From Dysosmobacter sp. (GTDB lineage Bacteria > Bacillota > Clostridia > Oscillospirales > Oscillospiraceae), in contig JAPFEH010000006.1 of assembly GCA_026169195.1 (NCBI GenBank), positions 23,243 through 87,242 on the forward strand: a stretch of 64,000 nt of DNA. The letters run 5' to 3'. The position numbers were made by a program, and so were the translations under genes. The notes under the pieces are model-generated. The model did no database searches, was not told where the DNA came from, and saw nothing but the letters and a program-made list of their open reading frames with translations. This document shows, piece by piece, positions 15,788-58,598 of the stretch. Every line of letters begins with the position of its first letter. The first letter of the stretch is position 1.

Positions 15788-15874
15788 TGGTGCCGGTGGT
15801 GGGACTCGAACCCACACGGTATCGCTACCAACGGATTTTGAGTCCGTCACGTCTACCAATTCCATCACACCGGC
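15788..15874 (-). tRNA. tRNA-Leu (anticodon CAA), CCA encoded
   Basis: Minus strand GCCGGTGTGATGGAATTGGTAGACGTGACGGACTCAAAATCCGTTGGTAGCGATACCGTGTGGGTTCGAGTCCCACCACCGGCACCA: acceptor pairing, T-loop GTTCGAGTC, anticodon loop CTCAAAA and class II variable arm. Confidence 0.95.
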
Positions 15875-50724: not shown

Positions 50725-50879
50725 AAATGGGTCCGCGCGGAAAGCTGTCGGCTTTCGCTGTGGACACTGCGATGAACCGGGAGATTGCTCCGAAAGGAGG
50801 TAACTTCCGGGGAGTATGTCCGATCATCGGGCGGCTGAGAGGATCTGTACGTTGCGTATATCGCCACGCCATGATCTGT

Positions 50880-57707: not shown

Positions 57708-57893
57708 ATGGCTAAGAAATCTATGATCCTGAAGCAGCAGGCTCCTGCGAAGTTCTCTACTCGCAAGTACAACCGCTGCAAGCTGTGCGGCCGCCCTCAC
57801 GCCTACCTGCGTGATTACGGCGTGTGCCGTATCTGCTTCCGGGAGCTGGCCTATAAGGGCGAGATCCCCGGTGTCCGCAAGGCTTCTTTCTAA
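57708..57893 (+). CDS. rpsN: 30S ribosomal protein S14, zinc-binding (type Z)
   Basis: [61 protein letters not shown]. Confidence 0.97.
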
Positions 57894-57904
57894 AAAAATA
57901 ACAT

Positions 57905-57993
57905 TGGCACAGCGAAAAATACTTGACGAACGGCAGTTCATCTGGTACGCTAGTAAAGTGGGACATTTCTGTGGAAATGTTCCCACTGTGCCA
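57905..57993 (+). other. Candidate structured RNA element between rpsN and rpsH
   Basis: Outer TGGCACA (57905-57911)/TGTGCCA (57987-57993) abutting inner GTGGGACATTTC/GAAATGTTCCCAC (57958-57986). Confidence 0.4.
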
Positions 57994-58199
57994 TGTTCAG
58001 AAGTCCGTTTTGCGGAAAAAGATCTGGCGAATTTCATTTTTGTAACCAAAGCCTTTGATATGGGGCTTTCGGTGATTCGGATGGCGAAAGGTCACGACCA
58101 ATTGGGCACACATGCGCGAGCAGACTACTCCATTGGCCATGATACCTCGCTGCCGCAGCGGTCCGCTGGACCGCAACTCTAAAATAGGAGGATTTAACC

Positions 58200-58598
58200 A
58201 TGCATATCACCGATCCTGTTGCGGATATGCTGACCCGCATCCGCAACGCAAACAGTGCCAAGCACGACACCGTGGATGTTCCCGCTTCCAACATGAAGAA
58301 GAGCATTGCTCAGATTCTGCTGGACGAGGGCTACATCAAGAACTTCACCGTGGTGGAGGACGGCCTTCAGGGCATGATCCACATCACTTTGAAGTACAAC
58401 GCCGGCAAAGAGAAGGTCATCACCGGCCTGCGCCGCGTTTCCAAGCCCGGTCTGCGCGTTTATGTGGGCGCCGATGAGCTGCCCCGTGTGCTCCGCGGTC
58501 TGGGTATCGCCATCATTTCTACGTCCAAGGGCGTCATGACCGACAAGAAGGCTCGCGAGCTGCATGTCGGCGGCGAGGTCCTGGCATTCGTCTGGTAA
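58200..58598 (+). CDS. rpsH: 30S ribosomal protein S8
   Basis: [64 protein letters not shown]. Confidence 0.98.

Follow-up and report, generated by a model that had tools for sequence, protein, structure and literature searches.

Results

The spacer between rpsN and rpsH consists of two parts

The window, which is the whole 64,000-nucleotide stretch of DNA that was analysed, contains the spc operon with rpsN, encoding S14 (57708..57893, + strand), immediately upstream of rpsH, encoding S8 (58200..58598, + strand). Both genes were read as ORFs; rpsN served as a tblastn query, and the rpsH product was analysed with phmmer. The gap of 306 nt and the lower GC content that the original prediction had described were confirmed, as the last nucleotide of rpsN is 57893 and the first of rpsH is 58200, and the GC content of the spacer is 0.48 versus 0.58 for the operon. 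The neighbouring gaps are short, with 14 nt between rplE and rpsN and 15 nt between rpsH and rplF. The helices that had been named were all found in the predicted fold, namely TGGCACA (57905-57911) paired with TGTGCCA (57987-57993), the inner hairpin at 57958-57986, and GCGGTCC-GCT-GGACCGC (58158-58174). The fold of the spacer has an MFE of -106.2 kcal/mol (z = -4.8), and none of 100 shuffled sequences was equally stable. An ORF of 123 aa crosses into the spacer (57811-58182). Since the spacer part of this ORF has no Pfam match and spacer length is highly variable among relatives, ranging from 89 to 1241 nt, the ORF is not considered to be a gene, and a hidden gene in the spacer was ruled out. 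An inserted repeat or mobile element was also ruled out, because only one copy of the spacer exists in its genome. The Rfam search that had been proposed as a check was run and identified no Rfam 15 family above the gathering score in the spacer, and no intrinsic terminator was found on the + strand within it. Comparison with the spacers of congeners demonstrated that the spacer has a clade-limited upstream part (57894 to ~58000) and a family-wide downstream part (58048-58199).

The upstream part, together with the hairpin that it carries, is present only in a few close relatives. The clade-specific hairpin (57905..57993, + strand), identified in the fold and composed of the outer TGGCACA/TGTGCCA helix and the inner hairpin at 57958-57986, keeps its pairs in seven relatives, in which the helices are 91% paired and four pairs show double changes. 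Sequence reading and alignment A5 additionally revealed a promoter-like site (57923..57951, + strand) composed of TTGACG (57923-57928), a 17-nt spacing, and an extended -10 TGG-TACGCT (57943-57951). We slightly favour the possibility that this upstream half, and this half only, is a clade-specific rpsH promoter with a 5'-terminal hairpin that would protect the transcript, which is compatible with an S8 leader downstream. The whole TTGACG-17-extended -10 arrangement is kept in seven sequences of one clade (extended -10 TGGTACGCT), and the inner hairpin begins at the expected +1. On the other hand, the -10 match is weak (3 of 6), and the site lies below the threshold of the consensus scan and was not reported by it. 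Moreover, one arm of the outer helix lies upstream of the promoter, so that this helix would form only in read-through RNA. Promoter-like sites were also observed upstream of the leader described below in other genera, at L165 (TTGACA-18-TATAAT), L153, L167, L074, and L297, the last of which was noted by eye. Separately, a palindromic repeat-like sequence (around ATACTTCGTTG ... GTAC ... CTCGTCT.GCGAAAAAATC) lies directly after the rpsN stop codon in many genera (L060, L062, L063, L065, L068, L070, L308, L025, L026, and L028); in this window it was not found beyond chance.

The downstream part is a covarying RNA found across Oscillospiraceae

The downstream part of the spacer (58048-58199) is kept in nearly the whole genus, and the same RNA occurs across Oscillospiraceae. 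It begins with the P1 hairpin (58048..58069, + strand), an AAAGCC/GGCTTT stem with a GATATG loop, which is kept in most of the genus according to alignments A1 and A2 and RNAalifold. P2 (58078..58155, + strand), a long stem supported by the alignments and by covariation, is the most conserved structure and had not been named in the original prediction. After a separation of 2 nt it is followed by the P3 hairpin GCGGTCC/GGACCGC (58158..58174, + strand), which is 98.4% paired in 101 sequences, with double changes in four of five pairs. Further downstream (58177..58191, + strand), CUCU (58177-58180) pairs with GGAG (58187-58190) of the Shine-Dalgarno sequence AGGAGG (58186-58191), and this pairing is 99.2% kept. 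The Shine-Dalgarno helix has only 4 bp, with a 3' strand that is under constraint in any case; its 5' strand alternates between CUCU and CUUC with pairing kept. No U-tract was found 3' of P3.

In the plain MAFFT alignment of 20 congeners, which supports P2, P3, and the pairing of CUCU with the Shine-Dalgarno sequence, 95.6% of cells were paired, and double-change cells numbered 40 versus 13.8 after shuffling and at most 8 in slid controls. In the 101-row alignment, which was fitted to the covariance model and is biased towards it, 94.9% of cells were paired, double changes occurred in 29 of 34 pairs, and double-change cells numbered 450 versus 133 after shuffling and at most 84 when slid. The covariation that had been asked for is therefore strong, and the element, far from being absent or unconserved in relatives, is found across the family. 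Of the structures stressed in the original prediction, the hairpin at 58158-58174 proved to be part of this family-wide element, whereas the outer and inner hairpins are confined to a small clade.

Of 401 family genomes, 142 were matched by covariance model R1, with essentially a single site in each, and they represent 51 of 106 genera. The model E-values are approximate, and most sequences come from MAGs. Both flanks were readable in 118 of the 123 R1 loci examined, and all 118 lie between rpsN and rpsH. The broader model R2 detected, at E below 0.001, 16 of 19 spacers from genomes that R1 had missed or that had been excluded from it. Furthermore, a location-blind 20-base pattern run on 84,980 species genomes returned 110 stretches, 102 of which lie in sense 89-128 nt upstream of the rpsH start; among the other eight, four have rpsN on a piece in which rpsH was not found, and four have neither gene. 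Alignment A4 includes one antisense artefact, a row from L057. Outside Oscillospiraceae, in the order, class, and phylum samples, R1 gave no match except a weak and unproven one (E = 0.006) before rpsH in G055 (L316), which belongs to another family of the order and was found on inspection to be without the A-C core. A P3-like hairpin and AACUGCAAAUAGGAGG precede rpsH in L316, which may be a distant relative.

S8-recognition nucleotides are kept in P2

The core that S8 recognizes in helix 21 of 16S rRNA contains a (G597-C643)-U641 triple, an invariant bulged A642, and an A595-(A596-U644) triple (PMC4176348). In P2, the predicted S8 site, the corresponding strands are A58089-G-G-U-C-A58094 (595-600) and U58140-G-A-U-A-C-C-U58147 (638-645), with numbering checked on E. 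coli 16S (rrsH), so that the core in the window comprises A58089, G58090-C58146, G58091-C58145, U58143, and A58144. In the window copy, positions 601-637 form a C-A mismatch immediately above the core and outside it. Among the 101 rows, A595 is kept in 100, G597-C643 and A642 in 99 each, and G-C at 596-644 in 98, and these nucleotides rank among the least variable of the leader. The 598-640 pair switches from U-A (68) to C-G (32), with 641 mostly U when this pair is U-A and A when it is C-G. The leader thus has the G597-C643 pair with N641 and the bulged A642, and also A595 next to a 596-644 pair, which is A-U in L296 and L293; an A595-(596-644) base triple would be expected to form from these letters. 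The 596-644 pair is mostly G-C in leaders versus A-U in E. coli, and exchange at this pair is known, since it is C-G in Thermus (PMC4176348). In the variant L296, AAGUCAG...CUGAUACU, the core letters are identical to those of E. coli 16S.

A model-free core pattern matched 19 of the 20 spacers of congeners, 10 of the 19 from R1-negative family genomes, and none of the 16 from other families; its background was 16 occurrences in 924 kb of flanking sequence. A clear core was not found in the family genomes L301 and L306, and in G030 (L037) the pattern scan indicated a core that is shortened, not lost. Because the host MAG gave no 16S match, helix 21 was read from congeners. Their 16S sequence, AAGUCAG...UUGAAACU, has the ARGYC / GANACY core in common with the leader, in the same strand order, whereas the flanking helices and the apical part of the leader differ. 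The S8 encoded in the window is ordinary and was aligned by phmmer to the S8 chains of E. coli (1s03) and B. anthracis (4pdb), which were solved with RNA. It has the STSKG loop, which corresponds to the loop that contacts A642 in known complexes (PMC4176348).

The conserved RNA as a candidate autogenous leader for S8

The RNA in the rpsN-rpsH spacer is conserved and covarying, precedes rpsH, and retains the nucleotides that S8 recognizes in 16S rRNA. Covarying structure and a consistent position upstream of r-protein genes, seen here in every readable R1 locus and in 102/110 pattern matches, are the features by which r-protein leaders are recognized. We consider it highly probable that the conserved segment at 58048-58191 acts as an autogenous S8 leader, in which P2 imitates helix 21 of 16S rRNA and lowers rpsH translation. 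The idea of a lineage-specific S8 RNA next to rpsH is upheld by covariation, strict location, and the S8 core, but the predicted site is the long stem at 58078-58155, not the TGGCACA/TGTGCCA hairpin. With S8 as the putative ligand, S8 in excess of free 16S rRNA would bind P2, and bound S8 would stabilize the P2-P3 stack by the ribosome-binding site together with the short helix over the Shine-Dalgarno sequence. Since P3 begins 2 nt after P2 and the CUCU/GGAG pairing covers the Shine-Dalgarno sequence, S8 binding should block rpsH initiation. Translation of rpsH would then fall, and coupling would extend the effect to rplF, rplR, rpsE, rpmD, rplO, and secY. We infer repression as the effect and, because no U-run follows P3, translation as a likelier level than transcription. 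The cell probably uses surplus S8 in this way to shut off rpsH and the genes after it.

A conserved RNA at this position could instead be a site of RNase processing or mRNA stability that sets unequal levels of the two halves of the spc operon without sensing S8. The element is indeed intercistronic, and the spacers of several clades also contain promoter-like sites (in 16 spacers versus 8.2 expected), suggesting that the downstream genes may form a separate unit. However, we regard this explanation as improbable, since it accounts neither for the identity of the invariant internal-loop nucleotides with those that S8 reads nor for the coupling of 598 with 640/641. Still further down the scale is a leader for another r-protein of the operon, such as S5, L6, or L18. 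The genes for these proteins lie just downstream, but the match is to helix 21, where S8 binds, and the S8 gene is the first after the element in every readable case.

Comparison with known systems

In E. coli, S8 autorepression acts at a spc mRNA site that overlaps the rplE start (PDB 1s03; PMC4176348), in which the GAAACU strand with U+11 comes first and the AAGUC strand (A+80, A+81) second (PMC4176348). The candidate S8 leader has in common with this site the S8-type core (A-(A-U) triple, G-C pair, and bulged adenine) and the location in the spc operon, whereas it differs in lying upstream of rpsH, in having the rRNA strand order, and in the addition of P3 and the Shine-Dalgarno helix. The E. 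coli-type location at the rplE start was not found in the window, where rplX and rplE are 19 nt apart and the element lies at rpsH, nor was the E. coli-type strand order, since the ARGYC strand precedes the other one, as it does in 16S. The 16S strand order and the choice of rpsH as the gene point to a different solution, not to the E. coli site moved. The leader would thus be a second natural solution to S8 recognition, with strands reversed relative to E. coli, and it offers, within this large gut Firmicutes family, a concrete candidate target for S8.

Eckert and Weinberg 2020 (PMC7247131) listed 20 r-leaders with similar evidence and the same presumed logic, and no S8 leader is in their table. 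According to a 2024 review, spc regulation outside gammaproteobacteria is unknown. No description of an S8 switch outside the E. coli group was found in Rfam 15 or in the literature, in which earlier surveys were covered in part; priority of the present description is likely but not proven. Judging from sequence comparison, there is a good chance that the leader represents a new class of S8 autoregulatory RNA, independent of the E. coli one, that would control rpsH to secY across Oscillospiraceae. The S10-Clostridia leader (RF03136) is an r-protein leader of the same gene cluster, with another structure and another gene (S10). It is present in the window at 50764-50834, upstream of the S10 gene, and also in O. 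ruminantium (L256). In addition, the window contains a tRNA gene at 15791-15874 on the - strand.
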